NCBI RefSeq assembly: GCF_019744875.1
Contig: NZ_JAIETU010000002.1
Coordinates: 558,001 to 622,000, forward strand
DNA from: Hyphomicrobium sp.
Lineage (GTDB): Bacteria > Pseudomonadota > Alphaproteobacteria > Rhizobiales > Hyphomicrobiaceae
Length of the DNA: 64,000 nt
Direction of reading: 5' to 3'
A model generated the notes under the pieces. That model ran no database searches. It had not been told where the DNA came from and saw only the letters and a program-made list of their open reading frames with translations. A program made the position numbers and the translations under genes. Below, one piece after another: positions 22,354 to 53,242 of the stretch (within the stretch, counting starts at the first letter, position 1; each line of letters starts with the position of its first letter).

Positions 22354-22518
22354 CTAGGGCTTCGGCGGCTGCGACGGCTCTTCGTCGTCCTGGATGGCGC
22401 GCCAGCCGGATCCCTCGAGGTCGTTGAATTGACCTGAGTTCAACGACCAGATGAAGGCCGCGAGGCCCAGTCCGCCGAGAGCGAGTGCGCACGGGATCAA
22501 CCAGGCCAAAGCGCTCAT
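22354..22518 (-). CDS. ccoS: cbb3-type cytochrome oxidase assembly protein CcoS
   Basis: A 54-residue single-span membrane protein (LIPCALALGGLGLAAFIWSL) with the family's SGQFNDLEG motif just after the helix. CcoS is needed for cofactor insertion during cbb3 maturation. Its ATG overlaps the ccoI stop by 4 nt. It is the last gene of the ccoNOQPGHIS operon. Confidence 0.92.
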   Translation of the reverse strand: MSALAWLIPCALALGGLGLAAFIWSLNSGQFNDLEGSGWRAIQDDEEPSQPPKP

Positions 22519-26754: not shown

Positions 26755-26773
26755 GATGCCTTACCTTAGATCG

Positions 26774-27652
26774 CTATTTTCCACCGCCCAACGAGTGCAC
26801 GTAGATCGTCAGCATCTTGATCGTCACGGGATCGAGCTTGCCTTCCCAGGCGGGCATGACGCCGATCCCGGCGCGGCCGGTGCGGATCGTTTCCACGACG
26901 TCCGACTTTTCACCGCCGTAGAGCCAGATGGCGTCGGCGAGGTTCGGGGCGCCCATCTCCTGGTTGCCCTTGGCGTCGGCGCCGTGGCAGGCGGCGCATT
27001 GCTCGGCGAAGATGCCCTTACCCCGCTCGATCGCGGCCGGATCGGCCTTCGCGCCGGACAGCGACCGGACGAAGTCGGCGGCGTCCGAGATCTGCGCGCT
27101 CGTCAGGACCTGATCGACCCCGAAGCGCGGCATGGCGCTGTCGTGCGTGTCGGGATGGCCCGAACGTACGCCGTAGCGGAGCGTTCTTTCGATGGTCTCG
27201 ACGGTGCCGCCCCACAGCCAATCGTCGTCGTTGAGGTTGGGATAGCCCTTGAAGCCCTGTGCGCCGCGGCCGTGGCACGGGGCGCAGTTGTTCGAGAACT
27301 GCGCCGCGCCGCCGCGCAGCACGAACTCCATCAGGTCGGGATCCTTCTCGATGTCCGCAATCGGCTTGGCGGCGATGGCCGCGACGAACTTCGCCTGGCT
27401 TTCCTTGCCCGCCGCGATGTCGCGCGCGACCTCGATGCGCTGGCTGTAGCCCAGCATGCCGTGGGTGTAGGTGCTGACGAGCGGCCAGGTGGGATACAGC
27501 ACCCAGTAGCCGATGGACCAGACGATCGACGCATACAGCACATAGAGCCACCACCGCGGCAGCGGCTTGTTCAGCTCCTTGAGATCGCCGTCCCAGACGT
27601 GACCCGTGGTCTCGGCGCCAGTGACGGCGTCGATTTCCTTATGTCCGCTCAT
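26774..27652 (-). CDS. ccoP: cbb3 cytochrome oxidase subunit III (diheme cytochrome c)
   Basis: A 292-residue subunit with an N-terminal membrane helix region (PRWWLYVLYASIVWSIGYWV, ~32-51) and two periplasmic cytochrome domains with heme sites at Cys123-Cys126-His127 (CAPCH) and Cys219-Cys222-His223 (CAACH). It passes electrons from soluble cytochromes to CcoO/CcoN. It overlaps ccoQ by 4 nt. Confidence 0.96.
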   Translation of the reverse strand: MSGHKEIDAVTGAETTGHVWDGDLKELNKPLPRWWLYVLYASIVWSIGYWVLYPTWPLVSTYTHGMLGYSQRIEVARDIAAGKESQAKFVAAIAAKPIADIEKDPDLMEFVLRGGAAQFSNNCAPCHGRGAQGFKGYPNLNDDDWLWGGTVETIERTLRYGVRSGHPDTHDSAMPRFGVDQVLTSAQISDAADFVRSLSGAKADPAAIERGKGIFAEQCAACHGADAKGNQEMGAPNLADAIWLYGGEKSDVVETIRTGRAGIGVMPAWEGKLDPVTIKMLTIYVHSLGGGK

Positions 27653-27846
27653 TGTGCGCGGTTCCCTTCGTCGTCGTCACGGATCGCGGGCATCTCCTCG
27701 TCGATCAAAAGCGGGAGGCGCGCGGCTTGGCGAAACTTCTCGGCATTGGATGGGCGGAAGGCGTAGAAGACGATCCCCGCCAGAAGCGATCCAAACAGCC
27801 CCATTGCGATCATCTGCGACCACTGAACGATTTCGGCGTAGCTCAT
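27649..27846 (-). CDS. ccoQ: cbb3 cytochrome oxidase subunit CcoQ/FixQ
   Basis: A 65-residue single-span protein (MIAMGLFGSLLAGIVFYAF helix) with the family end of the helix FYAFRPSN. It stabilises the cbb3 complex. ATG 27846 follows the ccoO stop by 10 nt with an AGGAGGA site. Confidence 0.92.
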   Translation of the reverse strand: MSYAEIVQWSQMIAMGLFGSLLAGIVFYAFRPSNAEKFRQAARLPLLIDEEMPAIRDDDEGNRAQ

Positions 27847-27856
27847 TGGGTCCTCC

Positions 27857-28591
27857 TCATCGCAGGTTCGGTCCGGCCGCATCGAAGGTCGTGAAATCAA
27901 CGAGCGTGCCGAGCATCTGCAGGTAGGCGATCAAGGCGTCCATTTCGGTCGCGGCTTCGTCGGCCTTGCCGTCGAACTTCCGCACTTGCGCCTTCGGATA
28001 GCGGGCGAGGACGGCCTTGCCGGCCTTGCTGTCGGGGCTGACCTGCCCATTGAGATCGGCAACCGCGTTCTCGATCATCTCATCGGTGTAGGGCACGCCC
28101 ACGAGCCGCAGCGCCTTCATGTCGGCGGCGATTGCGGAGGCATCGAGCTTGCGCTCGGCGAGGAACGGATAGCCCGGCATGACGGAACCCGGCACAACCT
28201 CGCGCGGGTGCTTCAAGTGGTCGACGTGCCAGGCGTCGGAGTACTTGCCGCCGACGCGCGCGAGATCCGGTCCGGTGCGCTTCGAGCCCCATTGGAACGG
28301 ATGGTCGTACATGCTCTCAGCGGCGAGGCTGTAGTGGCCGTAGCGCTCGACCTCGTCACGGAGCGAGCGGATCATCTGGCTATGGCAGTTGTAGCATCCT
28401 TCGCGGATGTAGATGTTGCGGCCCACCAGCTCGAGCGGCGCGTAGGGGCGCATGCCCTGCACCTTCTCGATCGTGGAGCCGAGGAAGAAGAGCGGCGCTA
28501 TCTCGACCAGGCCGCCGATCGACACCACGATCAGGATGCCGATGAGGAGCACCAGAGAGTTCTTCTCGAATATCGCGTGCGACAGTTTCAT
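27857..28591 (-). CDS. ccoO: cbb3 cytochrome oxidase subunit II (monoheme cytochrome c)
   Basis: A 244-residue membrane-anchored cytochrome with one N-terminal helix (~12-36). The heme site is Cys66-Cys69-His70 in [13 protein letters not shown], and the distal Met is likely in VMPGYPF. It is the second gene of the operon, 15 nt after ccoN. Confidence 0.97.
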
Positions 28592-28606
28592 TGGGTCGGC
28601 TCTCCG

Positions 28607-30271
28607 TCACTCGGCAGGGGAAGCGAGCGGCGCGCCGCGCAGCTCCGGGGCCGCGGCAACGCGCGGCTGATCCTTGATGTCCACGGGGGCGTCACCGCGG
28701 ACGGTCTTCCAGACGTTCCAAGCCATGAGCAGCGAGCCCGCGAGGAACATCGTGCCGCCCGTCGCGCGGATGATGTAGGGCCAGTGCATGGCCTCCACCG
28801 TCTCGACGAAGGAGTAGGTGAGGAAGCCGAGGTGGTCGTAGGCGCGCCACATCAGACCCTGCATGATCCCCGACACCCACATCGACGTGATGTAGAGAAC
28901 GATGCCAATGGTCGCGATCCAGAAGTGCCATTCGACGAGGCGCAGCGAATAGAGGCCCTGGCGCTTCCACAGCCACGGCACGAGGCAGTAGATGGCGCCG
29001 AAGGACACCATGCCGACCCAGCCGAGCGCACCTGAGTGCACGTGGCCGATGGTCCAATCGGTGTAGTGGCTGAGCGAGTTCACGGCCTTGATGGACATCA
29101 GCGGGCCTTCGAACGTCGACATACCGTAGAATGCCACGGAGACGACGAGCAGGCGCACGACGGGATCGGTGCGAAGGCGGTCCCAGGCGCCCGACAGCGT
29201 CATCAGGCCGTTGATCATGCCGCCCCACGAGGGCATCCAGAGCATGATCGAGAACGTCATGCCGAGCGTCTGCGCCCAATCGGGCAGCGCCGTGTAATGG
29301 AGATGGTGCGGGCCCGCCCAGATGTAGAGGAAGATCAGGCTCCAGAAGTGGATAATGGAGAGCCGATAGGAATAGACGGGGCGCTCCACCCGCTTCGGGA
29401 TGAAGTAGTACATGATGCCGAGGAAGCCGGCTGTGAGGAAGAAGCCCACGGCGTTATGGCCGTACCACCACTGCGTCATCGCATCCTGGACGCCGGCGAA
29501 CAGCGAGTAGCTCTTCGAGCCCAGCAGAGACGCCGGCACGGCAAGGTTGTTGACTATGTGCAGCAACGCAATGGTGACGATGAAGGCAAGATAGAACCAG
29601 TTCGCAACGTAGATGTGCGGTTCCTTGCGCTTCCAGATCGTGCCGAGGAAGACGAGCAGGTAGCAGACCCAAACCGCCGTCAGCCACAGGTCGACGTACC
29701 ATTCCGGCTCGGCGTATTCCTTGCTCTGGGTCGAGCCGAGCAGGTAGCCGGTGGCGGCAAGCACGATGAAGATCTGATAGCCGTAGACGACGAACCAGGG
29801 CGCCCAGTAGCCGGCGAGGCGCGCGCGGCAGGTGCGCTGGACGACATAGAGCGAGGTCGCGATCAGGACGTTGCCGCCGAACGCGAAGATCACGGCCGAG
29901 GTGTGCAACGGCCTCAGGCGTCCGAAGTTGGTCCACGGCAGGTCGAAGTTGAGCGCGGGGAACGCGAGCTGCCAGGCGATGATGACGCCGACGAGAAATC
30001 CGACGACGCCCCAGACCACCGCGGCGATGGTGGCGAACTTGACCGGGCCATCCATGTAGCCCTTCTGCTCGCCCGCGCCGCCGGGGCGCGGATGCGACAT
30101 GACGTAGAGTCCGGCCCCGATGCTGGCGACCAGAAACAGCGCGCCATGGAAGCGGATGACTTCGTCAAGACCTGCCAGCCAGTACACCGCGCCGAGCGCC
30201 GCACATCCCGCGGCCACCAACACAGCCGCGCCGCCGGACAGGGCGATTACCTCTTCGCTCGTCGCTCTCAT
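28607..30271 (-). CDS. ccoN: cbb3 cytochrome oxidase subunit I (catalytic)
   Basis: A 554-residue, ~12-14-helix proton-pumping heme-copper oxidase subunit that reduces O2 at low concentration. Family His ligands are seen in [32 protein letters not shown] and [11 protein letters not shown]. The ATG 30271 has a GAGGG site. A perfect TTGAT-N4-ATCAA box lies 63-76 nt upstream. It is the first gene of ccoNOQPGHIS. Confidence 0.97.
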
Positions 30272-30407: not shown

Positions 30408-32828
30408 CTATTGGATCGGGAGTTTCGTGCTCATCATGGGGGTCGTCACGCCGTTCACGTGATAGCTGTGACACAACAGGCAATCCTGGCGCGACTTTCC
30501 GGCGGTGTGGCACGTCTGGCAGAGATCCTTGTTCACCGCGCCGAAATCCGACGCGAACACTTTCGGATTGCCCTGCTCGTAGCTCTTCAGGTACGGGCGG
30601 CCCTTTTCGAGCGCGTGACACGTCAAGCAGCCGCGATCGCCCGTGATGGCGAAGTGCGGCTCATGGACGAACTTCGTGAAGCGTCCCGTCTTAGCGGCGG
30701 CCGACGCCGGGGCGAAGTTGACGATACGCCCCTTGCCCTGGATGTCGTCGACGCTGTGGCATTTGGTGCAGGCTCCTTGCGCGTCCTTGCCGGTGAGGCC
30801 GTCGAAGACCGCCGCGGCCGGGCTCGTGTCGCCTTTCGTTGCGTGGGGGCCGGTCAGGACGAGCCAGGAGAAGATGAATTTGTCCTTGTGGCCTACGGGC
30901 CGGTAGTAGATCGCGTGGTCCTGCCGGTACCAGCCGCCGTATTCGGCCCAACTCTCCGGGTCCACGTCGCTTTCGATGCTGATCTCGGATGCTGCTCCGC
31001 CTCGCGGCGCGGCTGCGGCGTCGGCTGACTTCGCGGGAGCTGTCGGCGCGCGGGTATCGGCTGCATAAGGGGGAGCGCCGCTATCGAGCTTGGCGTTCGC
31101 GGCATCCGACGAACCGCCTGCGGCCCCGGATGGCGCCTCCTTCGCGGCGCTCGGAGCTTCCTTCGCGATGCCGCGCAGCTCTTCCGCCGTCGGGAAGAGA
31201 AGGTCGTCGCTTTGATCCGCCGGATCGCTCGGGGGCGGCTTGACGGGGGCGCCCGCCTGCTTGTCGCCGTCGGATGGTTTGGTGGTCGTATCAGCCGATC
31301 CGGTGTCCTTGCCTGACGGCGCGGTTGGGCGATCGTCCTTGTCCGAGCCTTCGGGCTTTCTACGCTCCATCCTTGGCTCATCGTCGTCGGTGCCCTTGTT
31401 GCGCTCGGCGTCGATCGAGCGCGGCGTGCCGCTCGGCAGCAGCCTGCGTCCGGGGATGGTGTCGCTGTCCTCGGCGAGGCGCATCCGGCCGCGATGGCCT
31501 CCGGCTTCGCGCGCGTGCCCACCGAACAGCTCGTCGGGATCCGCCGTTGCGGCCAGCTTCGTTTCGGTCGTGATCGTGCTCCAGCCGTCGCCTGCCGCGT
31601 CCGTCTCCGGGTGCGCGGCGATCTCGGCCGCAAGATTGGGGAGCCACTGCTGCTGCGCGCCAGCGATCACATCGCGCGGCATGCTCGCGGTCAGGTCAGC
31701 GACGAGGCCGGCGCTCAGCGTCGCGCCGCCGATGCCGAAGTTGCCCAGCACGTCCGACGCCTTCCCCTTGATCAACGCGTGAAACAGCCGCTTGGTTTTC
31801 CAGGCCAGCGCCGCAACCGCCTTGATCTGCGCATCGCTCGCGGTGCTCAGATCCTGCAGGTTGACGCCGTCCAACGCCTTCATGAGCGCGCGGCCCCGCT
31901 CGTCCCGCCCGATCATCACCTTCATGAACGGCGTGAGCTCGGCTTCGGAGGCCTCCGGCCACTCGCCAATCGCGGCGTTTTTTTTCTTCAGTGTCTGCAC
32001 GTCCAGGCCCGGCACGGACAGGAACGCGACGCCTTTGGGCCCGCTCGCCCGCTCCTTGCCCACGATCTGATCGAGGTGGCAGCCCGTGCACGTCTGCTCG
32101 AACGGCGCCACGGCCATGACGCGCTTGTCCTGGCGGCTGTCGTGGCAGGTCGCGCACGTCTCGGGAATGCGCCGCGACGGGTCCTTCTTCGCGACCTCCG
32201 GGTAATGTTTGCCGAAGTGGCCGGCGTGGTCGTAGACGATCCGCGTGCGCCTCTCGAACGGGTACGTGACGAATTTCGGATGGTTGCCGTCGAAGCTGTC
32301 GAAGCGCACGGAGTGGCAGGCGCGACATTGCTCGTTCGAGACTTTGCTCAAGTCGAAGTTTGCGCCCTGGTGCTCCTGGTGGCAGGTCGCGCACTCGAGG
32401 CCGCCTTTCACCATGTCGTGGGTCGGAAAGGCAGCATCCTGCGCGCGGGCCGACAGCGGCACAGGCGTCGTGCTCGCGATTTTTATCAGCCGCTCCGTGC
32501 TCTGCTTCAGGGCTTCATCCGACGCACCGTGTGGGTTGAAGGCGGTCTCCGGCATCTTGTGACAGGTAAGGCAGGCTTTGCTGTCGGCGTGCGGCTCTCC
32601 CGGTGCGAGGCCGCGTATCCAGCTCAATTTTCCGCTGCCGCTGCTGGCGTGACACGTGCTGCACGCCTCGATCGCGCCGTGGGCGCTTGCCAGCGGCCCC
32701 GGCATCAGCATCTCAGTGCCGTGCGTGAGAACGAGACCGGCGCCGAGACAAACGAGTGTCGCAAGCGCAAGCACCCGCGCCAGACGATCTCGTCCCAAGC
32801 CTGATCCTTTCCAAGACGGCCGCCACAT
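30408..32828 (-). CDS. Decaheme cytochrome c with two heme blocks and a long heme-free linker
   Basis: An 806-residue protein held by an N-terminal helix (~18-36), otherwise periplasmic. Ten CxxCH sites are present: six at Cys56, 86, 146, 168, 225 and 247, and four at Cys687, 734, 770 and 783. Residues 252-686 have no heme; of these ~430-615 are a Pro/Asp/Lys/Ala-rich low-complexity stretch. The ATG 32828 overlaps the stop of the b-type cytochrome gene by 1 nt (TGATG). This is not the compact ~330-residue MtrA/PioA fold. It should carry electrons across the periplasm to or from the adjacent membrane cytochrome. The family beyond multiheme c3-like is not recognised. Confidence 0.85.
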   Translation of the reverse strand: MWRPSWKGSGLGRDRLARVLALATLVCLGAGLVLTHGTEMLMPGPLASAHGAIEACSTCHASSGSGKLSWIRGLAPGEPHADSKACLTCHKMPETAFNPHGASDEALKQSTERLIKIASTTPVPLSARAQDAAFPTHDMVKGGLECATCHQEHQGANFDLSKVSNEQCRACHSVRFDSFDGNHPKFVTYPFERRTRIVYDHAGHFGKHYPEVAKKDPSRRIPETCATCHDSRQDKRVMAVAPFEQTCTGCHLDQIVGKERASGPKGVAFLSVPGLDVQTLKKKNAAIGEWPEASEAELTPFMKVMIGRDERGRALMKALDGVNLQDLSTASDAQIKAVAALAWKTKRLFHALIKGKASDVLGNFGIGGATLSAGLVADLTASMPRDVIAGAQQQWLPNLAAEIAAHPETDAAGDGWSTITTETKLAATADPDELFGGHAREAGGHRGRMRLAEDSDTIPGRRLLPSGTPRSIDAERNKGTDDDEPRMERRKPEGSDKDDRPTAPSGKDTGSADTTTKPSDGDKQAGAPVKPPPSDPADQSDDLLFPTAEELRGIAKEAPSAAKEAPSGAAGGSSDAANAKLDSGAPPYAADTRAPTAPAKSADAAAAPRGGAASEISIESDVDPESWAEYGGWYRQDHAIYYRPVGHKDKFIFSWLVLTGPHATKGDTSPAAAVFDGLTGKDAQGACTKCHSVDDIQGKGRIVNFAPASAAAKTGRFTKFVHEPHFAITGDRGCLTCHALEKGRPYLKSYEQGNPKVFASDFGAVNKDLCQTCHTAGKSRQDCLLCHSYHVNGVTTPMMSTKLPIQ

Positions 32829-33721
32829 CACCACGCCCCCGATGAATAGGCATAGACGACGAGACCGTGCAGCACGCCGAGCACGACCAGCGCATAGGTG
32901 GCGGGCACGTGTACGAACAGCCACGCCCGGGTCAGCGCAAGATAGACGCGGGCGAAATCCAGGCGGTCTTTTTCCACCGCCAAGCTCCTGATCGCGGCGA
33001 GCTTCTCCTGGCTGGCCGCATCGACATAGCGGGCGAGACTGTCGATCTCATCGGTCAGTCTCTTGAGATGACGCTGCGAGCCGATGAGATGGGCCACTGC
33101 ATTGCGCGGGCCGTCGAAATGCTGGCGCAGGTGGGCGGTGTAGAGATCGGTGATCCACGCGTCATGGGGGAGCCCCGGCAGCGGGGGCAATCCCGGCAAG
33201 GCGATCTGGGCGGCTCCCGGCTCGCTCTCGACGACGGCGGCGTGGACGGCTCGCGCCAACTCGGCGCGCAGCACTGGGATCCGCTCCGCGCTCACGCCGT
33301 CATCAATGAGGCGTTTCGATTTCAGCGACCAGCCGAGATAGACGCCGAAGATGCCGCTCAGCGTCACCAGCACGAAGCCTGCCCACAGCGCCCATTCGAA
33401 GCCGGTATCCGGCAACGATAAGCCCGAGTGCGAGACGAAGGCGGCAATCAGGAGGTAGCCCATGGCGATATGCGTCTTACGCCAGCGCATCGCGGACTTC
33501 GGAGAGAGGCGCGCGGTCTTGATCGCGATGTGGAAGTAGATCTGCACCGCCATGCCGCCGGCCAGCACCCAGCCGTCGAGGTAGCGCGGGTCGCGCAATC
33601 CATTGCCATAGATATAGACGAGCCAGAACAGGCCAGCGGACAGCGCCGCGATGGCTGCCACCAGCGCCCCCTGTCGCGCGGGCCGTCTCGCCGCGCGTGT
33701 TCCGATGGCCTCATGCGTCAC
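32828..33721 (-). CDS. b-type membrane cytochrome (cytochrome b561/bc1-like)
   Basis: A 297-residue membrane protein with about five helices (~20-38, 48-69, 83-104, 110-131, 266-290) and a ~130-residue soluble loop between helices four and five. His84/His98 and His271/His285 each show the His-x13-His spacing of two stacked b hemes; His64 is additional. Start is GTG 33721 with AGGGG upstream. Coupled to the decaheme gene by a 1-nt overlap, it is the likely quinone- or membrane-level partner of that cytochrome. The heme assignment is read from His spacing, not from a named family. Confidence 0.72.
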   Translation of the reverse strand: MTHEAIGTRAARRPARQGALVAAIAALSAGLFWLVYIYGNGLRDPRYLDGWVLAGGMAVQIYFHIAIKTARLSPKSAMRWRKTHIAMGYLLIAAFVSHSGLSLPDTGFEWALWAGFVLVTLSGIFGVYLGWSLKSKRLIDDGVSAERIPVLRAELARAVHAAVVESEPGAAQIALPGLPPLPGLPHDAWITDLYTAHLRQHFDGPRNAVAHLIGSQRHLKRLTDEIDSLARYVDAASQEKLAAIRSLAVEKDRLDFARVYLALTRAWLFVHVPATYALVVLGVLHGLVVYAYSSGAW

Positions 33722-33819
33722 GGCAGACCCCTGTTCTTCCCCATCGCCGCGGTCCTGATCGCAAGTCTCTTTTGTTGTTCCGGCGCACTTTCGTTGTGCC
33801 GCAGCACCGCGCGGCGCAT
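33718..33819 (-). CDS. Possible 33-residue peptide filling the gap between two cytochrome genes
   Basis: ATG 33819 lies 13 nt after the tetraheme stop, and its TGA overlaps the GTG of the b-type cytochrome (GTGA). The peptide is basic and Gln/Asn-rich, without a helix or signal. There is no ribosome site. It may only be a translational bridge or chance. A short direct repeat TCAGTTGGG occurs at the junction (33819 and 33833 regions). Confidence 0.2.
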   Translation of the reverse strand: MRRAVLRHNESAPEQQKRLAIRTAAMGKNRGLP

Positions 33820-33832
33820 CAGTTGGGCGGCT

Positions 33833-34909
33833 TCAGTTGGGTGGCTTTCTGGCCGCGCCCTTGTATTTGTCCGCGCCGGGTATCAGGCCATCGAGCCCGG
33901 CCATCGTGCTGCCGTCGTACTTTTCCGTGACGAGCACGAGTTGTCGGGAGACGCCGTCGGCGGCGGCGGTGAGGCGCGCTTCGTTGTTGAGTTTCAGGCC
34001 CGCGGAATGGCCCAGCTTCACCATCTCCGCGATTTCCGGCACGCCAGGGGCTGCCTTCGCCGCAACGTCGAGTTGCTTGCGCGCGCGATCCGCACGCTTG
34101 GCCATCTCGAATGCGTAGGCCTTTCGCACCGTCGCCTTGCCGATGCCGCGCAACGCCATTTCAAGTTCGACGCCGAGGCCGACGAGATAGAGCATGCGCT
34201 TGCGCGCGGCATCGGCCGGCACGTTTTCACGGCCCTTGGAATGCCACGTATTGTGGCGCACCTCGCCTTGCGACCAGGACACCAGCTCGAAGGCGCTGCC
34301 AGCCTTGTGGCCGCCCTTGTTCACGAGCTCTTCCTGCGGAACGACGTGGCAGGTGTAGCAATTCTTGGCGAGTTGATAGACGGAGCGCGGCCTGATCATT
34401 CCTTTGGAGTCGGAGAGCCTCCAGCGCTCCTTCGCCTCGGCCTTGGTTTCGAACAGGATGGTCTTGCCGCTGAAGCCGCTGTGCACCTTGATCCAGTCCT
34501 GCCCGGCGCTGTGACAGCTCTCGCAGGAGATGCCCGAGACCGGCTCCTCGCGATCGTTCTTCTGCTGCAACGTAAAGTGACAGCTCGCGCACAGAGTGTC
34601 GTACTTGATGCGGCGCACGCCCATTTTGTCGGCGATCTCATTCGCCTTGGTGTTGCGGGGCATCTCCCGAAATGTCTTGAAGTGGTGCGACTCCTTCCAC
34701 GCCTCGACCTCCTGCTTGTGGCATTCGGCACAGGCGTTCGGGCCGACCGTCTTGGCGGTGTCGGTGGCCGTGGCTTCGGTTGCGGCGAAGCTCGAGACGG
34801 CGAGAACGGCGACCAGACGCGCCATCGGCCATCCGAGGCGCAGCGACCTGCGACTTGTCCCTGCCCCGACCGCAATCGATTTCGGGGTGTGCACGCGCGG
34901 CCCCCTCAT
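33833..34909 (-). CDS. Tetraheme cytochrome c (cytochrome c554-like)
   Basis: A 358-residue periplasmic cytochrome with four CxxCH sites at Cys60, 107, 129 and 184. The opening NACAECHKQEVEAWKESHH resembles the c554 family. The C-terminal ~160 residues have no heme and are helical. The start ATG 34909 overlaps the reductase stop (ATGA). A second start at 34825 (MARLVAVLAVSSFAATEATA) would give a cleaner signal peptide. It is predicted to shuttle electrons between the cytochromes of this locus. No P460 or hydroxylamine oxidoreductase gene is nearby. Confidence 0.85.
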   Translation of the reverse strand: MRGPRVHTPKSIAVGAGTSRRSLRLGWPMARLVAVLAVSSFAATEATATDTAKTVGPNACAECHKQEVEAWKESHHFKTFREMPRNTKANEIADKMGVRRIKYDTLCASCHFTLQQKNDREEPVSGISCESCHSAGQDWIKVHSGFSGKTILFETKAEAKERWRLSDSKGMIRPRSVYQLAKNCYTCHVVPQEELVNKGGHKAGSAFELVSWSQGEVRHNTWHSKGRENVPADAARKRMLYLVGLGVELEMALRGIGKATVRKAYAFEMAKRADRARKQLDVAAKAAPGVPEIAEMVKLGHSAGLKLNNEARLTAAADGVSRQLVLVTEKYDGSTMAGLDGLIPGADKYKGAARKPPN

Positions 34910-36006
34910 CCTTCCCTGGCTTCGTTTGCGCGATAGAGGTTCGGCGGCGGATCGCGGCGCGCCGGATTGGAGCCAAGATCGCGCTGGCCCTGCTCCCGGC
35001 GCGGAGGCACGGCGAGCCAGCCCATCGCGCGCGTCAGAACGCTGTCCTCGGCCGCGTCGGCAGCAGTCGGCAGGAAGGGATCCGCATAGCAGACCGCGCC
35101 GACGCGCGCCGCGGCCGCCTTGACCTGCTCGACCATTCCCGGCGCGCCGCACGCGTAGAGCACATCGCTCGGCAGCAGAAGCGGGAGATAGTCGGTCGGA
35201 CGCCCCGGCATCACCGCGTTGGCGGCGGCTTGCGGTCCGCTGCACACAGGCACGACCAGCACATTGGGATAGCCCGCCAGCCGCACGAGCGCGGGGCCCA
35301 TGTAAAGAGCCTCCATGGCGCGGCCGCCCACGATGATCATGATCCTGCGCTCCGGATCCTCTCGGAGCGCGGCCGTCGCCACCGACCAGATCGGTGCAAA
35401 GCCGGTATTGGTTGCGACGAGAACAAGCCGGCCTACGAGATCCGGCCGGAAATGCGCCGAACCATAGGGACCCGCCAACGTGACGCGATGACCCGGCCTG
35501 ATGCGCGTGCCGAGAGAGGCAGTGACGCGCCCGTTCGGCATGCGCCGCATATGAAACCAGATGGACGCGCCAGCTGCTTCGCCGCGCAATGGGTGCGTCA
35601 TGCTGAAGGGACGGCTTGCAAAGCCCTTAAACCGGACCTGGGCATATTGTCCGGCATGATAGGGCAGCGCGCGATCGGTCCGGATGCCGACTTCGATCAC
35701 CTCGCGCGAGAGCGGCAGCAACGAGCTCACGACGCCATCTACGCTGCGCACGCCCGACGTCTGGCGCTTCTCAATCGCGGCATCGCCTGCAATCCGGCAC
35801 TGGCAGGCGTGGACGATGCCGGGCTCGGCGCCTTCTCCGCCCTGCACCTGGCCGGAGACGAGACGCACACAGCATGTTCCGCAATGGCCGGCCCGGCAGT
35901 CGTGGGGAAGATCGACGCCGTTGCGCAAGGCGGCGTCCAGCAGCACCTCGCCGCGGCGCGCCCGAAACTCCTGGCCATTGATCGTTATTCTGCAATCGAT
36001 TGCCAT
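34906..36006 (-). CDS. 2Fe-2S ferredoxin / FAD / NAD(P) oxidoreductase
   Basis: A 366-residue soluble reductase. A plant-type 2Fe-2S domain comes first (Cys37-x4-Cys42-x2-Cys45, then Cys68). It is followed by an FAD domain (SRPFSM, ~150) and an NAD(P) domain (LVLVATNTGFAPI; YACGAPGM), and a ~60-residue tail. It has no signal peptide, so it is cytosolic. Such reductases normally feed oxygenases; here it leads an operon of cytochromes and no oxygenase is present. It may exchange electrons between NAD(P)H and the membrane cytochrome. Start ATG 36006; ATG 36030 is possible but lacks a ribosome site. Confidence 0.85.
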   Translation of the reverse strand: MAIDCRITINGQEFRARRGEVLLDAALRNGVDLPHDCRAGHCGTCCVRLVSGQVQGGEGAEPGIVHACQCRIAGDAAIEKRQTSGVRSVDGVVSSLLPLSREVIEVGIRTDRALPYHAGQYAQVRFKGFASRPFSMTHPLRGEAAGASIWFHMRRMPNGRVTASLGTRIRPGHRVTLAGPYGSAHFRPDLVGRLVLVATNTGFAPIWSVATAALREDPERRIMIIVGGRAMEALYMGPALVRLAGYPNVLVVPVCSGPQAAANAVMPGRPTDYLPLLLPSDVLYACGAPGMVEQVKAAAARVGAVCYADPFLPTAADAAEDSVLTRAMGWLAVPPRREQGQRDLGSNPARRDPPPNLYRANEAREG

Positions 36007-36475
36007 TATCTGTTTCCGAATGTCATTCATGAGCCAACCGCACAAGTGCTCTTACGAAGACAATCGGGCAAAAAATGTGAAGCGAAGCGAAAAGCCAATG
36101 CTCGCTCCATATAGGTTGTGCTCCACAGCGCTCATTGAACGCAAAAACGAGAAAACTATTTTATTCCGCGCGACCAGAAATCGTCACAATCTCCCGCGGC
36201 AAACCGCTGCGTAACCTACGCATTGTTCCGTATCTGCTCAGATCGGAGCTTTCAGTTTTTTTAGCGCTTTCATTCGATTGACGGAGCGTCTCCGCGCGTC
36301 GCGAAAATGGCCGCTTCAGGCTTCGCATTTCGGTCTGTCGCGTTTTCTCGGCCATTTGTCGGCCCGCTTTGCGCGCTATTTTTCAATCAGACCTTCGAAG
36401 TAGCAACTCTCCACAGTTCTCGCGCAGAAGATGCACTTTGCAGTGCCCTCGTGAGCCCATCCAGATGGTGACTCC
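36007..36475. other. Divergent non-coding region between the two multiheme cytochrome operons
   Basis: A 469-bp AT-richer stretch with no convincing gene, which must contain the outward promoters of both operons. An inverted repeat AAATGGCCG / CGGCCATTT occurs around 36305-36357. TTGACG at ~36278 could be a -35 but has no good -10. No FNR-type palindrome was found here, unlike in front of ccoN. Confidence 0.6.
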
Positions 36476-38503
36476 ATGCAAGCCGTGCGCAATTTCTCCG
36501 TATACTTCCGGGTGTTCGCCTGTGCCGGCGTGCTGGCCTGCGCGGCGTCCGCCGGCATCCGTTCCGCGTCCGCCGCCGATGCGAACGCGCTGCTCGAAGC
36601 GCTGATCAAGAAGGACGAGGCGAGCAGGCTCGGCGGGCCGACATCCGGCGAAACGAGCGGCGCCGCGAGCCCCAAGGGCAACGGCGCAAAGAGCAAGACC
36701 AAGGTTTCCGAGGACGCGCATTCAGAGGGCGCGAACGCACAGGCAGAGGGTGCCGGCGCACATAAGTCGGGCGCTGACGCGCATGCAGAGGGTCACGGCG
36801 AGATGTCCGTGCTCAAGGCCGCCGCCGAAGCCTCGAAGGGCCAGGAGGCGCCGATCCCCGCGGTCGATGAGGAAACGCTCTCGCTCTATCCCACGGCCGC
36901 GCAATGCGGCGAATGCCACAAGCAGATCTATGAGGAGTGGTCGTCGTCCCAGCATGCGTATGCGTCGATCTCGCCCATGTTTCACAAGTTCGAGCAGAAG
37001 TTCCAGGATCTGACGCAGGGCACGGTCGGCACGTTCTGCGTGCGCTGCCACCAGCAGGTCGGAACGCAGCTCGGCGAAAACCGCGAGACACCGCTCTGGG
37101 ATCGCAGCCCGATTTCGCGCGAAGGCGTGACCTGCATCACCTGTCATCGCGTCAGCGAGCAATACGGCAAGGTCAACGGCGAACGCCGCGTCGTTCCCGG
37201 CAAGATCTACGAGCCGGTGTACGGCAGCGGCGAGAAGAGCGTGATCAAGGACGTGCTCGCCAACAAGGACACTTACTCCGTCAAGACCAGCACCGACGGG
37301 CGCGGCAACGACATTCACAAGGGCATGATCACGAACGACCAGATTACCAAGTCGGAGTTCTGCGTGAGTTGCCATCAGGTTGCGGTGAACCTCGGCATCA
37401 AGCTCGAGATCGTCTGGGACCAGTATCGCGACAGCCCGGCGCGAAAGGCCAATGTGACGTGCCAGGACTGCCACATGGGCAAGGTGCCCGGAAAGCCCGA
37501 AGGCTATGCGACGGCTCCCTCCGCAGTGGTCGGCGGCAAGGAGGTCAATCCAGGGCGCAAGCACGCCAATCACCGCTTCATAGGTCCCGGGTACTCGATC
37601 GCGCACCCCGGCATCTTCCCGCACAACACCAAAGCGCAGGCCTACAGCATCAAGGACTGGCTGCAGTTCGACTGGCGCGGCGGATGGGGCACCGCCAAGT
37701 TCGAAGACAAGGTCGCCGCCGGCAAAGCCAAGGTCGCCTTTCCCAAGCGGTGGGCGGATGCGCTCGACCGCGAGGACGCGCGCGAGATCATCGAGGAGAA
37801 CCTCAAGAAGCTCGACGAGCGGGACGAAATCCGCAAGCAGGTGATGGAGAACAGCAGCCACATCGACGGCCCCTTTGTCCAGGGTGCTCCGGCTGTCGGC
37901 TCGGATCTGGCGTTCTCCTACAAGATCAAGAACACCAACACCGGCCACAACCTGCCGTCGGGTTCGCTCGGCGCGCAGCCACAGCTCTGGGTGAATGTCG
38001 CCCTCGTCGATCCGGACGGCCTCAACGTCTGGGAGTCGGGCTACGTCGACAGCAACGGCGACATCGCCGATCTGCACAGCCTCGACGTCGCCGCGGGCCG
38101 CATCAAGACAGACCAGCAGCTCGTGCACTTCCAGACCAAATTCCTCACGACCAACGTCAAGGGCACGGAACGTGAGATGTATCTACCGGTGAATTTCGAC
38201 GTCGATCCGTTGCCTCATCTGCGTCCGCCGCAGATCCCGACCACCGTTCTCAATCATCCGCCGCTGGTGCGCATGGAGAACCGCTCTCTCGCGCCGCTCG
38301 GCGAGAAGCTCGCGAAGTACGTCGTGCCCGGCAACCTGATCACGAAGCCCGGCAAATACAGCCTCGCCTTCCGCATGCGCAGCCGCGCCGAGCCGATCTA
38401 CTTCATGCGCTTCGTCGGCTCCACCAAGGCCATGGAGCAGAGCATGAACGAACGGATCATGAATTTTCACGCCTTCGCGGTGGAGGTCGATGTGAAGGGC
38501 TAA
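36476..38503 (+). CDS. Pentaheme cytochrome c with His-rich N-terminal segment
   Basis: A 675-residue periplasmic or exported cytochrome with a signal peptide (~1-34, ASAAD). Residues ~55-110 are a low-complexity Ala/Gly/Glu segment with repeated DAHSEG/DAHAEG units. Five CxxCH sites follow at Cys144, 188, 220, 296 and 329. The C-terminal half (~460-675) is heme-free and beta-rich and includes NTGHNLPSG, whose His may be a heme ligand. It opens the rightward operon and is followed by the outer-membrane barrel gene after 88 nt. There is no CxxCK site or NrfA/HAO signature. Family is multiheme cytochrome of unknown role. Confidence 0.85.
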   Translation: MQAVRNFSVYFRVFACAGVLACAASAGIRSASAADANALLEALIKKDEASRLGGPTSGETSGAASPKGNGAKSKTKVSEDAHSEGANAQAEGAGAHKSGADAHAEGHGEMSVLKAAAEASKGQEAPIPAVDEETLSLYPTAAQCGECHKQIYEEWSSSQHAYASISPMFHKFEQKFQDLTQGTVGTFCVRCHQQVGTQLGENRETPLWDRSPISREGVTCITCHRVSEQYGKVNGERRVVPGKIYEPVYGSGEKSVIKDVLANKDTYSVKTSTDGRGNDIHKGMITNDQITKSEFCVSCHQVAVNLGIKLEIVWDQYRDSPARKANVTCQDCHMGKVPGKPEGYATAPSAVVGGKEVNPGRKHANHRFIGPGYSIAHPGIFPHNTKAQAYSIKDWLQFDWRGGWGTAKFEDKVAAGKAKVAFPKRWADALDREDAREIIEENLKKLDERDEIRKQVMENSSHIDGPFVQGAPAVGSDLAFSYKIKNTNTGHNLPSGSLGAQPQLWVNVALVDPDGLNVWESGYVDSNGDIADLHSLDVAAGRIKTDQQLVHFQTKFLTTNVKGTEREMYLPVNFDVDPLPHLRPPQIPTTVLNHPPLVRMENRSLAPLGEKLAKYVVPGNLITKPGKYSLAFRMRSRAEPIYFMRFVGSTKAMEQSMNERIMNFHAFAVEVDVKG

Positions 38504-38591
38504 TCGCACTCCGAACTTCGGATGCGCACCGGCGGGGGAAGCACCGGCGCTCATCCGATCTCACGACCAAGTCACGACGAGGGGGTTTCGT

Positions 38592-40265
38592 ATGACGTGT
38601 AATGCGTACCTTGCCAGGACCAGCACCGCCGCACTCGCGATGGTGGCCGGAGGCTGTCTCCTTGCAACCGGGGCGGCGTCCACATTTGCCGCGAGCGATG
38701 GCGAAGCCGGCGACGGCGGCTGGTCGGTGCAGGTCTGGCCCGGCGCATCGCGGCTGGCGTCGGCCGAAGATCAGGCGCGCCTGCAGGCGGGCAGCAGCAC
38801 GGAGGCCAAGGTCGAGACCACAGCCGCAAACGCAACGCCCGAGAAAAAGGCTGCCAAAAAAACTGATAAGGCGGCGCGCAAGCGCAAGGAGGCAGCCGCC
38901 AAGGACGACCTGTTCCGATCCGATCCTCAGTACGACGGGGAATACCACGCGGACGGGCAGGTCGACATCTATGGCGCAAAGAGCGCGGTCGAGCCGCCGC
39001 GTCCTCCGGTGGAAATCGGCCGGCAGCAATATACCTCCGGCGCCTACGACAAGAGCAGCACGTTCCTCGGCGAGAAGAACCCGTTGCTCCCGGGCCTTGC
39101 GATCTACGGCGACTGGCGGACGGCGATCGCCTCCAACAACAACAACGGCAAGAACATCTCGCAAGTCGCGACGCGCTTGAACCTCGACGTCGATTTCAAG
39201 ATCACCGGCACCGAGCGCATCCACGCGTTCTTCACGCCGCTGCAGAAGGCCAACAAGGAGTTCACGCGCTTCGAGTTCGGCCGAGGCGACGGCAACGGGC
39301 AATTCAACGACGAGCTCGATCTCAACCCGCAGACACTGTTCTTCGAAGGCGACGTGGGCTCACTCTATTCGGGCTTCTCCGGCCAGGACGCCACGTTCGA
39401 CCTGCCCTTCACGGTCGGTCTCTATCCACTGTTCCTGCAGAACGGCATCTGGGCGAACGACGCCATCCTCGGCGGCGCGGTCAGCTTGCCTGCAAAAAAC
39501 TCCGCCGCGCTCGGATTGGCGAACTTCGACATCACCTTCTTCGCCGCGTTCGACAACGTCGACAACGCGGGCATCATCGGCGCGGACAAGGGCGACAACC
39601 ATCTCGCCAACCTCTACGGCGTCACGGCGTTCATCGATGCTTTCGACGGCTACATCGAAACGGGCTACGGCTTGATCCAAGGCCGCGACGAGCAGGACGG
39701 GCTGCTGACTCACTTCCTGACCGCCGCCTACACGCACCGCTACTTCAACACCGTCTCGAATTCCACGCGCGTGTTCGCGAACTTCGGCGAAGACCCGGAA
39801 GGCAACAGCGACGGTCTCGCGATCATCTCCGAAAACAGCCTCGTGACGGGATTGCCGAGCACGCTGCTACCGTATGCGAATTTCTTCGTCGGCTTTGGCA
39901 ATCCTCAACCGTTGGTCGATGGCAACGGCGCGGGCATCCTGAAAAACGTTGGCATCAACTTCGAGACCGACGCGCTCACCGGCTATCCGAAGCTCGACGA
40001 CAGCGGCTCTAATGCCCTAGGTGGCGCGCTCGGCCTGCAGTACCTCTTCAATCTCGATCAGCAGCTCGTGTTCGAAGTGGCGATGGTGCAGCCGTTCAAG
40101 GACGACGGCATCGGCGCCGATGACGCGCAGTACGGTTTCGGGATCCGCTATCAGGTGCCCATCGACCGGGCGTGGCTGTTCCGCGCGGACGCGACCTACC
40201 AAATTCTCGACGGCGGCGATGAAGACAACTTCGGCCTTCGCGCCGAGGTGCGCCGCAAATTCTGA
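38592..40265 (+). CDS. Predicted outer-membrane beta-barrel protein of the multiheme locus
   Basis: A 557-residue protein with a signal peptide (cleavage near TFA-AS, ~34), a Lys/Ala-rich linker (~75-105), then ~400 residues of alternating amphipathic strands rich in Tyr, Phe and Asn/Asp turns. It ends in a terminal Phe (VRRKF), the outer-membrane insertion signature. It is shorter than MtrB/PioB (~700-800) and lacks an N-terminal CxxC pair, so it is not an obvious homologue. Its position after the pentaheme cytochrome suggests a porin-type sheath or channel for it. Ribosome site GAGGGGG. Confidence 0.72.
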   Translation: MTCNAYLARTSTAALAMVAGGCLLATGAASTFAASDGEAGDGGWSVQVWPGASRLASAEDQARLQAGSSTEAKVETTAANATPEKKAAKKTDKAARKRKEAAAKDDLFRSDPQYDGEYHADGQVDIYGAKSAVEPPRPPVEIGRQQYTSGAYDKSSTFLGEKNPLLPGLAIYGDWRTAIASNNNNGKNISQVATRLNLDVDFKITGTERIHAFFTPLQKANKEFTRFEFGRGDGNGQFNDELDLNPQTLFFEGDVGSLYSGFSGQDATFDLPFTVGLYPLFLQNGIWANDAILGGAVSLPAKNSAALGLANFDITFFAAFDNVDNAGIIGADKGDNHLANLYGVTAFIDAFDGYIETGYGLIQGRDEQDGLLTHFLTAAYTHRYFNTVSNSTRVFANFGEDPEGNSDGLAIISENSLVTGLPSTLLPYANFFVGFGNPQPLVDGNGAGILKNVGINFETDALTGYPKLDDSGSNALGGALGLQYLFNLDQQLVFEVAMVQPFKDDGIGADDAQYGFGIRYQVPIDRAWLFRADATYQILDGGDEDNFGLRAEVRRKF

Positions 40266-40289
40266 CGATCGGCTGGAGGGAGTTCTCTC

Positions 40290-40718
40290 ATGAGTAGCCA
40301 GACTTGGTTCGCACCGTTCGTGTTTGTGCCGATTGTGATGGCCTGCGTGCTGGTGGCCGGGTTCTTCGGCCTTGCGGCGGTCTCGGCCGCTTCGGCCGGG
40401 AAATCCGTCATGAAGGCGCGCGATGGCGGACGGGCCTATGTGCTCGAGGGCACAAAGCGCACCCGCAGTCGCGGCCCACGGATCCCGCAGCCATTGGGAC
40501 CGGCCTACATCTACTACGACTATCCCTACTACTACAGCCGCGGCTACTACCCGACGCACATCGGGCGGTATGTCTATTTCCCCTCGTTCGCGCGCGGCCG
40601 TGATCCAAAAGTCGATGCCAGATGCTCGAGCTGGCGGCGAAGTTGTCTCGCCAAAGCCGGCTACTATCGGGGACCTGCGTCGCCCCGCCGCCAGAGGGGG
40701 GCTTGCAGATGTCGCTGA
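40290..40718 (+). CDS. Small Tyr-rich membrane-anchored protein
   Basis: A 142-residue protein with one N-terminal helix (FVFVPIVMACVLVAGFFGLAA), then a basic segment. A striking Tyr-rich stretch (~72-97: YIYYDYPYYYSRGYYP and YVYF) and an Arg/Cys-rich tail follow. The ribosome site GGAGGGAG is strong. The Tyr run could stack aromatic residues near hemes or be structural; this is speculation. It lies 24 nt after the barrel gene and overlaps the CcmI-like gene by 10 nt. Confidence 0.6.
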   Translation: MSSQTWFAPFVFVPIVMACVLVAGFFGLAAVSAASAGKSVMKARDGGRAYVLEGTKRTRSRGPRIPQPLGPAYIYYDYPYYYSRGYYPTHIGRYVYFPSFARGRDPKVDARCSSWRRSCLAKAGYYRGPASPRRQRGACRCR

Positions 40719-41689
40719 AGCTTTTCGGTTGGATCCTGATCGTCTCCGCGCTCGCGCCCTATGCGCTGCTCGTTTATCAGCTCCGGTCGCGGGTTTCGCT
40801 GGCGCCGCAAAGCGGCCGCGCCGGCGTGGGCATGACCGCGCGCCTGAGAGACAGCGGGTCGCTGCTCCGCCACGTGAAACTCGACGGCGGCCGGGGAACG
40901 TTGACGATTGCCGCCGCTGTCTTTCTCGTCGTTGCGTGTGCAGGCTTTGCGAAATCGTATTTCGGCCAGGCACCGGATGTGTCGGATGAGACGATGGCGA
41001 CTTCTCGGTCATCCGATGCGGGCGATCCTGCCGATCTTGCCGATGGCGACCTCGAACACCTCGCGGACTATGCGCGCTCCGTCGCTACCGCCTCGCCGAC
41101 AGCGACCGACGGCCAGCGCGACACCGCCACGCTCCTGCCCGACGTGAACACGATGATCGAGCGGCTCGCCGCTCGCCTCGCAAGCGCGCCCGACGATGTG
41201 CAGGGCTGGCGCACGCTCGGCTGGTCCTACGTCAACACGGGGCGGTATGACGATGCCGTAAAGGCCTACGCGAAGGCCGTCGCGCTCGATCCGAACTCGC
41301 CCGAGATTGCGCGCCTCTATGAGGACGCCAAGGCGAAGGCGTCCGGAAGCGCAGGCGTGGCCGCCGCGACAGACGCTACGACGACGCCGTCAAATGCCAC
41401 GCAGCCGCAAGACTCCGATAGCGCGCCAGCGCAGACCCCTGCCGGCACACCACCGCATGACACCAACGCCGCCATCCGATCGATGGTCGATGGGCTGGCC
41501 AATCGCCTCGCGAGCGCGCCGCGCGATGTCGAGGGCTGGACACGCCTGATGCGCTCTCGCGTCGTGCTCGGAGAACGAGGCGTCGCAGCGGAAGCGTTCG
41601 CCAAGGCCCTCGAAATCTTCAAGGACGACTCGGCTGCTTCCGCCCAGGTCACGGCCATGGCGGCCGAACTCGGCCTGACATCCGAATGA
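40709..41689 (+). CDS. CcmI/CycH-like TPR protein, cytochrome c maturation
   Basis: A 326-residue protein with two membrane helices (~7-23 and ~64-82) around a cytosolic loop, then a periplasmic domain with TPR units (WRTLGWSYVNTGRYDDAVKAY). The C-terminal motif MVDGLANRLASAPRDVEGW is typical of CcmI, which presents apocytochrome c to the heme ligation machinery. No other ccm genes are here, so this is probably an extra, locus-specific copy. Start ATG 40709 has AGAGGGGGG upstream. Confidence 0.75.
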   Translation: MSLKLFGWILIVSALAPYALLVYQLRSRVSLAPQSGRAGVGMTARLRDSGSLLRHVKLDGGRGTLTIAAAVFLVVACAGFAKSYFGQAPDVSDETMATSRSSDAGDPADLADGDLEHLADYARSVATASPTATDGQRDTATLLPDVNTMIERLAARLASAPDDVQGWRTLGWSYVNTGRYDDAVKAYAKAVALDPNSPEIARLYEDAKAKASGSAGVAAATDATTTPSNATQPQDSDSAPAQTPAGTPPHDTNAAIRSMVDGLANRLASAPRDVEGWTRLMRSRVVLGERGVAAEAFAKALEIFKDDSAASAQVTAMAAELGLTSE

Positions 41690-41728
41690 CCTCCCTCAAT
41701 CGCCGCGCCCGGCGCGCAGGAGTTCGAC

Positions 41729-42961
41729 ATGAATTTTGATCACCAGTTCCAGCAGCGGCTGGAGGCCCTCCGCCGCGAAGGCCGCTATCGCGTGTTCGCG
41801 GACTTGAAGCGCCGCCGCGGACACTTTCCAGCGGCCGATCATTTCACGGCCCATCGCACACGCGAGGTCACGGTGTGGTGCTCGAACGACTATCTCGGCA
41901 TGGGCCAGCACCCGGCCGTCATCGCCGCCATGCACGAGGCGATCGACGCGGCGGGAGCGGGCTCGGGCGGCACGCGCAACATCTCCGGGACGACCCACTA
42001 TCACGTGGAGCTCGAAGCCGAGCTTGCGGACCTGCACGGGAAAGAAGCCGCGCTGCTGTTTTCTTCCGCCTACATGGCCAATGACGCGACGCTCTCGACC
42101 CTCGCCCGGCTGGTTCCCGGCACGGTCGTGTTCTCGGATGAGAAAAACCACGCGTCGATGATCGAAGGCATCCGCCACGGCGGCGGCGACAAGCAGATCT
42201 TTCGCCACAACGATATCGGCGACCTCGAAGCCAAGCTCAGAAAGTATCCGAAGGGCACGCCCAAGATCATCGCCTTCGAGAGCGTCTACTCGATGGACGG
42301 GCATATCGCGCCGATCGCGGCCATCTGCGATCTCGCGGAAAAATACGGCGCGCTGACCTATCTCGACGAGGTGCACGCGGTGGGGCTCTACGGCCCGCGC
42401 GGCGGCGGCATTGCCGAGCGCGACGGCGTGATGCACCGCGTCGACGTCATCAACGGCACATTGGCCAAGGGTTTCGGCGTCATGGGCGGCTACATCGCGG
42501 GCACTCGGACCCTGATCGATGCGATCCGCTCGTTTGCCGCCGGGTTCATCTTCACGACCTCGCTGGCGCCCACGATCGCGGCTGGCGCGCTCGCCTCCCT
42601 CCGCCACTTGAAAACAAGCACGAGCGAGCGAGCCCGCCACCAGGAGCGGGTGCGGACGCTCAAGGCGGCGCTCAAAGCGAAGCGCGTCCCCGTCATGGAC
42701 AATCCGAGCCATATCGTGCCGGTGATGGTCGGCTGTCCGGCTCACTGCAAGGCGATCACCGACACGCTGCTTCGCGAGCACGGCATCTACGTGCAGCCCA
42801 TCAACTATCCGACGGTGGCGAAAGGCACGGAGCGGATGCGCCTCACGCCGTCGCCCGTTCATTCCGACGACCAGATGGACGATCTGGTGCGCGCCCTGGG
42901 AGCGCTGTGGGCGGCCTGCCCGGTGCCGAACGGCGCGTATGTGAGGCTGGTCGCGGAATAG
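41729..42961 (+). CDS. hemA: 5-aminolevulinate synthase
   Basis: Condenses glycine and succinyl-CoA to 5-aminolevulinate, the first step of the C4 heme pathway (PLP enzyme, cytosol). At 410 residues it is full length. The N-terminus CSNDYLGMG, the glycine-rich [13 protein letters not shown] and PLP-binding Lys247 (NGTLAKGFG) are intact. It follows the CcmI-like gene by 39 nt with an AGGAG site and is on the same strand, so it may be co-transcribed with the multiheme genes and raise heme supply. Confidence 0.96.
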
Positions 42962-44570: not shown

Positions 44571-45227
44571 TCATCGGCGCAGCACGAGGTCTGCCGTATC
44601 GGCGCGCGCCTGCCAGCCGGCGCGTTCCAGCTCCGGATCCAGGTGCTCCTCCACCGGCCGCCCGAGACAGAGATAGGCGACGAGCGACCAGTCGGCCGGC
44701 ACGTCGAGCGCCTGGGTCACGACATCGGGCTCCAGAATCGAGACCCAGCCGAGGCCGATGCCCTCCGCGCGGGCCGCGAGCCACATCGTGTGAATTGCGC
44801 CGACCACGGAGTAGCGAAGCACTTCCGGCATCGTCTGGCGGCCGAGCCCGGCCCCGCGTTCCGTGTCCTCGTCGGCGAACACGGCGAGATGGACGGGCGC
44901 CTTCTCGAGCCCTTCGAGCTTGAGGCGCGCATAAAGCTCGCGCTGCTCGCCGTCGTAGCCGTCGAGGGCGGACTGGTTGGCACGCCGAAACGAGGCCCGC
45001 ACGGCATCGCGGCGGGCTTCGGATGCAACGAGCACGAAACGCCAGGGCTGGCAGTTGCCGACCGAGGGCGAGCGGCACGCCAGCTCGATCAGCCGCTCGA
45101 CGCTGCCGGCGGGCAGCGGATCGGGCCGGAAGCGCCGGACATCGCGCCGCCAGTACACGAGGTCGCGGAACTGGTCTGCGAAGGCCGCCGAAAACTCGGG
45201 GGCTGCGTGACGAGGGGTGTCCGTCAT
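44571..45227 (-). CDS. bluB: 5,6-dimethylbenzimidazole synthase
   Basis: A 218-residue flavin-destroying enzyme that makes the lower ligand of cobalamin from FMNH2 and O2. The BluB signature VYWRRDVRRFRPDPL and SPSVGNCQPWRF are present. The ATG overlaps the cobB stop by 4 nt, placing it third in cobA-cobB-bluB. Confidence 0.95.
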   Translation of the reverse strand: MTDTPRHAAPEFSAAFADQFRDLVYWRRDVRRFRPDPLPAGSVERLIELACRSPSVGNCQPWRFVLVASEARRDAVRASFRRANQSALDGYDGEQRELYARLKLEGLEKAPVHLAVFADEDTERGAGLGRQTMPEVLRYSVVGAIHTMWLAARAEGIGLGWVSILEPDVVTQALDVPADWSLVAYLCLGRPVEEHLDPELERAGWQARADTADLVLRR

Positions 45228-53074: not shown

Positions 53075-53242
53075 TGATTTCGGCCGGTCATGGGAATCCG
53101 GATATCGAGGGCATTGCAGTAGGGTCTCAGCGCTGCATGACACGGCCGGGGCCTTGCGGCAACTGCAGCGGGATTGAAGGGGCCGCCCGGATGTGGGAGC
53201 AGAGGCTTGGGCGTGTTGCGATCGGGAGGCTGGCGGCGAGCG

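Follow-up and report, generated by a model that had tools for sequence, protein, structure and literature searches.

What does the divergent set of cytochrome genes at positions 30408-42961 of this Hyphomicrobium sp. contig encode, and in which direction would it carry electrons? The analysis covered a stretch of 64,000 nucleotides (the window), which sits in a 4.52-Mb genome. All nine genes named by an earlier sequence-only reading were in place, in two arms diverging from 36007-36475. That reading had regarded the locus as a possibly undescribed electron conduit across the envelope. The anatomy was borne out; the novelty was not, since gene content and order match subgroup I of PCC4 as He et al. 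2017 (PMC5566968) describe it. Judged by its gene content, heme numbers, gene order and the motifs of its inner-membrane b-type protein (IMP), the locus is classed here as a member of PCC4 subgroup I, and it probably serves a Hyphomicrobium-type bacterium as an envelope electron chain. The reverse arm runs in the order reductase, tetraheme cytochrome, b-type membrane protein and decaheme cytochrome, and the forward arm in the order pentaheme cytochrome, barrel, small Tyr-rich protein, CcmI/CycH-like tetratricopeptide repeat (TPR) protein and 5-aminolevulinate synthase, as follows.

30408..32828, reverse strand: decaheme cytochrome (Deca), 806 amino acids, ten CxxCH motifs, N-terminal anchor or signal, 6 + 4 hemes with a long linker
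32828..33721, reverse strand: b-type cytochrome of the inner membrane, corresponding to the IMP of PCC4, with two HX13H pairs
33833..34825 or 34909 (two possible starts), reverse strand: tetraheme cytochrome of c554 type, four CxxCH motifs, PF13435
34906..36006, reverse strand: cytosolic 2Fe-2S/FAD/NAD(P) reductase (Red), with Fer2, FAD_binding_6 and NAD_binding_1
36007..36475, no strand: divergent intergenic region, from the coordinates
36476..38503, forward strand: pentaheme cytochrome (Penta), five CxxCH motifs, C-terminal immunoglobulin-like domain
38592..40265, forward strand: outer-membrane beta-barrel, 557 amino acids, ending in RKF, about 18 predicted strands, N-terminal extension of about 135 residues
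40290..40718, forward strand: small Tyr-rich membrane protein, transmembrane-like segment at residues 10-28
40709..41689, forward strand: CcmI/CycH-like TPR protein, a heme attachment helper, accessory (PF23914, E 3.6e-17)
41729..42961, forward strand: 5-aminolevulinate synthase (hemA), accessory heme supply (TIGR01821, 665.6 bits against a cut-off of 338.55)

PCC4 was named by He et al. 2017 (PMC5566968) as a candidate class of porin-cytochrome electron conduits, comprising a porin, periplasmic cytochromes with 4, 5 and 10 hemes, an IMP with two WX3HX13H motifs and an SGxxG motif, and other redox proteins. According to the same source, subgroup I has gene directions of its own, lacks the PF13247 iron-sulfur gene, and is confined to Hyphomicrobium. 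The window contained a porin-like barrel, three multiheme cytochromes with 4, 5 and 10 sites by motif count, an IMP carrying all of these motifs, divergent arms and a gene for a redox protein lying upstream of that for the tetraheme protein; the IMP gene had no PF13247 neighbour, and the host is of Hyphomicrobium type. No essential difference was seen in this comparison with the published description.

The present analysis adds to PCC4 the occurrence of the same divergent arrangement in six more genera of the family, a wider range of record titles, the barrel fold, the pentaheme family, the co-inheritance of the genes and the cyclic-nucleotide-binding (cNMP-binding) domains in the iron-sulfur protein of subgroup II. 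PCC4 was mentioned in passing in a 2026 paper (PMC13264449). In the literature searched, no paper was found that joined Hyphomicrobium, multiheme cytochrome and manganese oxidation, nor one that linked at least four of the five subjects pentaheme cytochrome, porin, cyclic nucleotide, ferredoxin and Planctomycetes.

Proteins of the cluster

Exactly 19 CxxCH motifs (4 + 10 + 5) were counted across the three cytochromes, the number given by the sequence-only reading. In a control with 500 shuffles each of Deca and Penta, the mean was 0.012 and 0.004 motifs, respectively, with a maximum of 1. Deca was listed with 838 amino acids from an upstream GTG; counted from ATG 32828, a start codon overlapping the stop codon of the b-type gene, it has 806, and this length and the split of the hemes had both been described correctly, with six motifs at residues 56-247 and four at 687-783. 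Deca carried one transmembrane-like segment (residues 16-34) and matched Paired_CXXCH_1 / Cytochrome_C7 in Pfam, and its profile gave no match at E 0.01 among the sequences of solved structures. In locus L059 the decaheme protein is spread over two frames, one with 6 hemes and one with 4, perhaps through an assembly frameshift.

The tetraheme protein matched Cytochrome_C554 (PF13435, E 1.4e-15) and the cytochrome c554 structure 1bvb (E 2e-07). It was replaced by an 8-heme relative in L074, L108, L110, L112 and L128, and a diverged b-type protein was found in L074, L108, L110 and L128, not in L112. The N-terminal hydrophobic segments of the three cytochromes suggest that all of them are periplasmic. 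Red carried Fer2, FAD_binding_6 and NAD_binding_1 domains and no transmembrane-like segment.

The motif residues of the IMP were strongly conserved: W80, H84, H98, G123, G126, W267, H271 and H285 were invariant in 22/22 aligned sequences, and S122 was kept in 90% or more of them. Simple hydropathy gave four clear membrane segments, compared with five helices in the PCC4 description. The IMP matched DUF4079 weakly (24.2 bits, cut-off 31.4), its profile found chance-level matches only among the sequences of solved structures, and PF01794, the membrane domain of ferric reductases and NADPH oxidases (FRE/NOX), was absent from the families matched at E 0.1. A likeness of the IMP to these enzymes had already been remarked by He et al. 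2017 (PMC5566968), and it extends to the combination of an NAD(P)H-flavin protein with a membrane b cytochrome bearing two HX13H pairs. The window system differs from FRE/NOX in its separate polypeptides, its extra 2Fe-2S domain, its long multiheme relay and the lack of a PF01794 match.

The barrel had the 557 amino acids and the terminal Phe of the sequence-only reading. Its predicted model showed about 18 strands (19 strand segments within residues 165-556), and the nearest solved folds in a structure search were the substrate porins OprD/Occ, MOMP and AlgE. No Pfam or NCBIfam family was matched at E 0.1, the MtrB/PioB family included, and PF11854 (MtrB_PioB) had no match in the whole genome. 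The barrel profile gave just two chance-level matches among the sequences of solved structures; MtrB was not among the best 50 structure matches listed for the barrel, an absence that is not proof.

Penta combined five hemes and an immunoglobulin-like domain in the fold of 5ZE8, the pentaheme cytochrome c552 of Thermochromatium tepidum, and this fold is common to a family that includes ExtKL of Geobacter. Identity to 5ZE8 was 18% in the structural re-alignment; 5ZE8 was not in the best 50 Foldseek matches listed for Penta and was found by VIA re-alignment. Penta scored 33.2 bits on the ExtKL model NF040886 (cut-off 250), which does not make it an ExtKL equivalog, and 35.3 bits on the MtrA/DmsE model TIGR03508 (cut-off 192.2). 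Beyond the CxxCH motifs, histidines 160, 281, 366 and 491 were found in 52/52 sequences, H377 in 49 and H534 in 47, and the fifth distal heme ligand is therefore not certain.

Conservation and distribution

Twelve loci of the window's family (L034-L045) were compared, from its own genus and six other genera (g5, g8, g15, g16, g21, g23). All six core genes were present in 11/12; the contig of the remaining locus, L037, starts just before the pentaheme gene. The small Tyr-rich protein had a tblastn match in 9/12. CcmI was present in 12/12 (in L044 at the opposite flank of the cluster) and hemA in 7/12 within the locus stretches examined. Outside Hyphomicrobium-type loci, CcmI matches reached only 74 and 118 bits (L047, L065) and HemA matches only 192 and 198 bits (L122, L125), compared with 900 and more for true HemA. 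Since neither gene was strongly matched there, CcmI and hemA are regarded as heme-supply companions and not as core. The core set, without these two genes, is kept as a unit far beyond this genome, which supports the sequence-only reading on this point.

Barrel, Penta and IMP were also co-inherited. The barrel was found in 16/60 related genomes, and strong Penta matches (E < 1e-200) occurred in exactly these 16, with weaker partial matches in five more. Strong IMP matches (E < 1e-80) were found in the same 16 and in G034, an 83%-complete draft, and weak ones in a further twelve. The single-contig genome G006, from the window's genus, was devoid of barrel, Penta and IMP. Among 299 genomes spread evenly over the phylum, 70 matched the Penta query at E 0.001, strongly only the window's own genome and G336.

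A scan of species genomes yielded 330 Penta relatives, of which the best 80 were kept. Among these, the barrel followed Penta on the same strand in 68/72 loci with room for it; L091, L101 and L127 had an overlapping barrel frame and L128 none. Thirty-nine loci had 8.5 kb on both sides, and of these 19 contained all six core genes (at least 100 bits), 13 Penta and barrel only, and 7 a partial set. In 12 genomes selected for lacking a full-strength IMP in the examined stretch around Penta and barrel, an IMP match was present in the genome every time, at E 1.1e-32 or better in eleven and weakly (1.8e-9) in one. Red was present in 43/49 loci with an IMP of at least 100 bits, the exceptions being L074, L092, L108, L110, L125 and L128; these 49 comprise 21 Hyphomicrobium-type loci (two of them duplicates) and 28 others. 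The model scores of the locus scan are generous, because the models were built, and one set rebuilt, from matches among the same loci, and three pairs of loci are duplicates (L037 = L051, L040 = L050, L044 = L055).

The record titles of the best 80 of the 330 Penta relatives indicate about nine phyla (Proteobacteria, Planctomycetota, Verrucomicrobia, Nitrospirota, Nitrospina, Acidobacteria, Gemmatimonadota, Rhodothermaceae and SAR324), with the barrel nearly always adjacent where the contig permits; metagenome bins may be mistitled. Two bins titled Asaia bogorensis and Klebsiella pneumoniae (L076, L105) also carry the Penta-barrel pair; both belong to a single sample series, and their labels are probably wrong.

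Outside the Hyphomicrobium-type loci a further protein was found. A 4Fe-4S protein matching a cNMP-binding model lay beside the IMP gene, or was fused to it, in 27/28 other loci (not in L114), and no such gene lay beside the IMP gene in the 21 Hyphomicrobium-type loci. In Pfam, the iron-sulfur proteins of L066 (5375-7054) and L107 (16770-18839) showed two cNMP-binding stretches and PF13247, and that of L109 (4933-6693) one such stretch and PF13247. FHA domains were present in the iron-sulfur protein of L107 and in the reductase of L109. The cNMP-binding domains might form a second-messenger switch on the electron-transfer chain. The words cyclic, cNMP and FHA are absent from the main text of He et al. 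(PMC5566968).

Electron flow and rival explanations

How the chain may work can be outlined from these proteins. Red, with its NAD(P)H-type domains, would exchange electrons with NAD(P)H in the cytosol. The IMP, whose ligands are invariant, would provide the passage through the inner membrane by two hemes bound at the HX13H pairs, in the manner of ferric reductases and NADPH oxidases; contact with quinone is possible as well. The anchored Deca and the tetraheme protein would relay electrons through the periplasm. Penta, which is adjacent to the barrel and inherited with it, would work together with the barrel, probably in contact. The usual flow would be outward, to an extracellular or periplasmic acceptor. 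We lean towards this direction, because, with the inner side of the membrane negative, electrons in a plain wire flow more readily outward, and because the NAD(P)H-type reductase recurs. The path across the envelope proposed by the sequence-only reading stands as the best reading of the locus; the fit of a cytochrome plug in the barrel, which that reading named as a possible support, was not upheld, being weakened by the roughly 18 strands and the substrate-porin folds.

The distribution of RuBisCO bears on the direction. It was found in 1/14 barrel carriers of the window's family versus 9/22 non-carriers (Fisher two-sided p 0.054; 0.21 without three weak matches), which gives no sign of a link to autotrophy in this family.

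Several points weigh against an outward envelope chain of PCC4 type. A barrel of about 18 predicted strands is narrow for a cytochrome plug, and the AlphaFold models are single chains without hemes. The distribution across the phylum is patchy, and the chain is not always one unit, as 13/39 long loci link Penta and barrel only. Both order-level barrel carriers, G036 and G040, have RuBisCO, which speaks against the direction, and a cbb3 oxidase operon at 22515-30271 (reverse strand), directly downstream of the Deca gene, could argue for inward flow. Experimental work on PCC4 was not found in the literature searched.

The operon contains ccoN and ccoO (by eye), CcoP (FixP_N, E 2.8e-23), FixG/CcoG (Pfam) and a P-type ATPase. 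In the stretches of 11 family loci covering the decaheme side ccoN/ccoO did not turn up, and the operon was set aside as a part of the system. A methanotrophic, pMMO-linked role was also set aside: the AMO family PF02461 was found in 0/60 relatives, an absence that is unproven because the control matched nowhere either.

The rival that survives best, though we consider it doubtful, is a periplasmic reductase or oxidase fed by a porin, in which substrate enters through the barrel, Penta acts as an enzyme whose heme site is open, and no electron leaves the cell. The substrate-porin fold predicted for the barrel agrees with it, as does the listing of the pentaheme family as potentially catalytic with a five-coordinate heme (PMC11976967); the conserved histidines of Penta leave room for such a site, and the uncertain heme ligation of Penta tells against it. 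The model for this rival would be the Geobacter pair ExtI/ExtKL, which is associated with the reduction of selenite and tellurite. The extHIJKLMNOPQS cluster of Geobacter sulfurreducens encodes the porin ExtI, the 5-heme ExtKL, further cytochromes with 4, 10 and 12 hemes, a Rieske protein and a b-type membrane protein, and loss of ExtI impairs selenite and tellurite reduction (PMC5877670). With only extHIJKL left, up to half of wild-type Fe(III) oxide reduction and three quarters of Mn(IV) oxide reduction were retained (PMC6148476); the predictions for ExtI in these two papers (PMC5877670, PMC6148476) give 12 or 21 membrane segments. The ext cluster resembles the window in combining a porin with a pentaheme protein from the same broad family, cytochromes with 4 and 10 hemes, a b-type membrane protein and an Fe-S protein. 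It differs in that ExtKL is a predicted selenoprotein, on whose model Penta scores far below the cut-off, and in adding a rhodanese lipoprotein, the 12-heme cytochrome and the Rieske protein; the parallel between barrel and ExtI is one of gene content. The parallel between PCC4 and ext was stated nowhere in the literature searched, and it may be new because the word ExtI is absent from the main text of He et al. (PMC5566968).

Somewhat less likely still is the inward conduit for lithotrophy proposed for PCC4 by He et al. 2017 (PMC5566968), in which external Fe(II) or Mn(II) is the electron donor and its electrons pass through the cytochromes to the IMP and the quinone pool. It keeps the PCC4 membership and differs in direction. 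The iron-oxidiser genomes and habitats in that paper speak for it, together with the RuBisCO of G036 and G040, the cbb3 operon adjacent in the window and the ccoN/ccoO relatives near the cluster in L067. It is opposed by the RuBisCO counts in the window's family, by carriers whose record titles include Rhodopirellula, Lacipirellula, Marinobacter and Tistlia, which are known as heterotrophs, and by the membrane potential, against which a plain wire would have to drive electrons if they are to arrive at the cytosolic reductase.

Mtr/Pio/Mto barrels have 26 strands. A conduit like MtrCAB, PioAB or MtoAB, with Deca plugging the barrel, is suggested by the presence of a decaheme and a barrel in one cluster and is very improbable, because the comparison with MtrA, MtrB and PioB proposed by the sequence-only reading gave no MtrB_PioB match in the barrel or the genome and 20.3 bits for Deca on TIGR03508 (cut-off 192.2), which is no MtrA/DmsE-type match, because the barrel is predicted with about 18 strands, and because its conserved neighbour is Penta and not Deca.

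Returning to the outward chain, a more specific form of it can be put forward tentatively: PCC4 might be a split NADPH-oxidase-like machine that drives NAD(P)H electrons through the inner membrane to a pentaheme enzyme of the nanowire/ExtKL lineage behind a substrate-selective porin, with a cNMP-binding iron-sulfur switch outside Hyphomicrobium-type bacteria, and not a plugged-barrel conduit for iron oxidation. Several carrier groups are not known to us as iron oxidisers. If outward flow from NAD(P)H is true, many bacteria would possess an unrecognised means of acting on redox substrates that lie beyond the cytoplasm.

Other genes of the window

Three other genes of the window were noted. A 1107-amino-acid protein with a transglutaminase-like region and DUF2126, a putative amidoligase, is encoded at 57986-61309 (forward strand). 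A nitroreductase-family protein (44571-45227, reverse strand) and a CobT-type phosphoribosyltransferase of the DBI_PRT family (52016-53341, reverse strand) possibly serve the lower ligand of vitamin B12.

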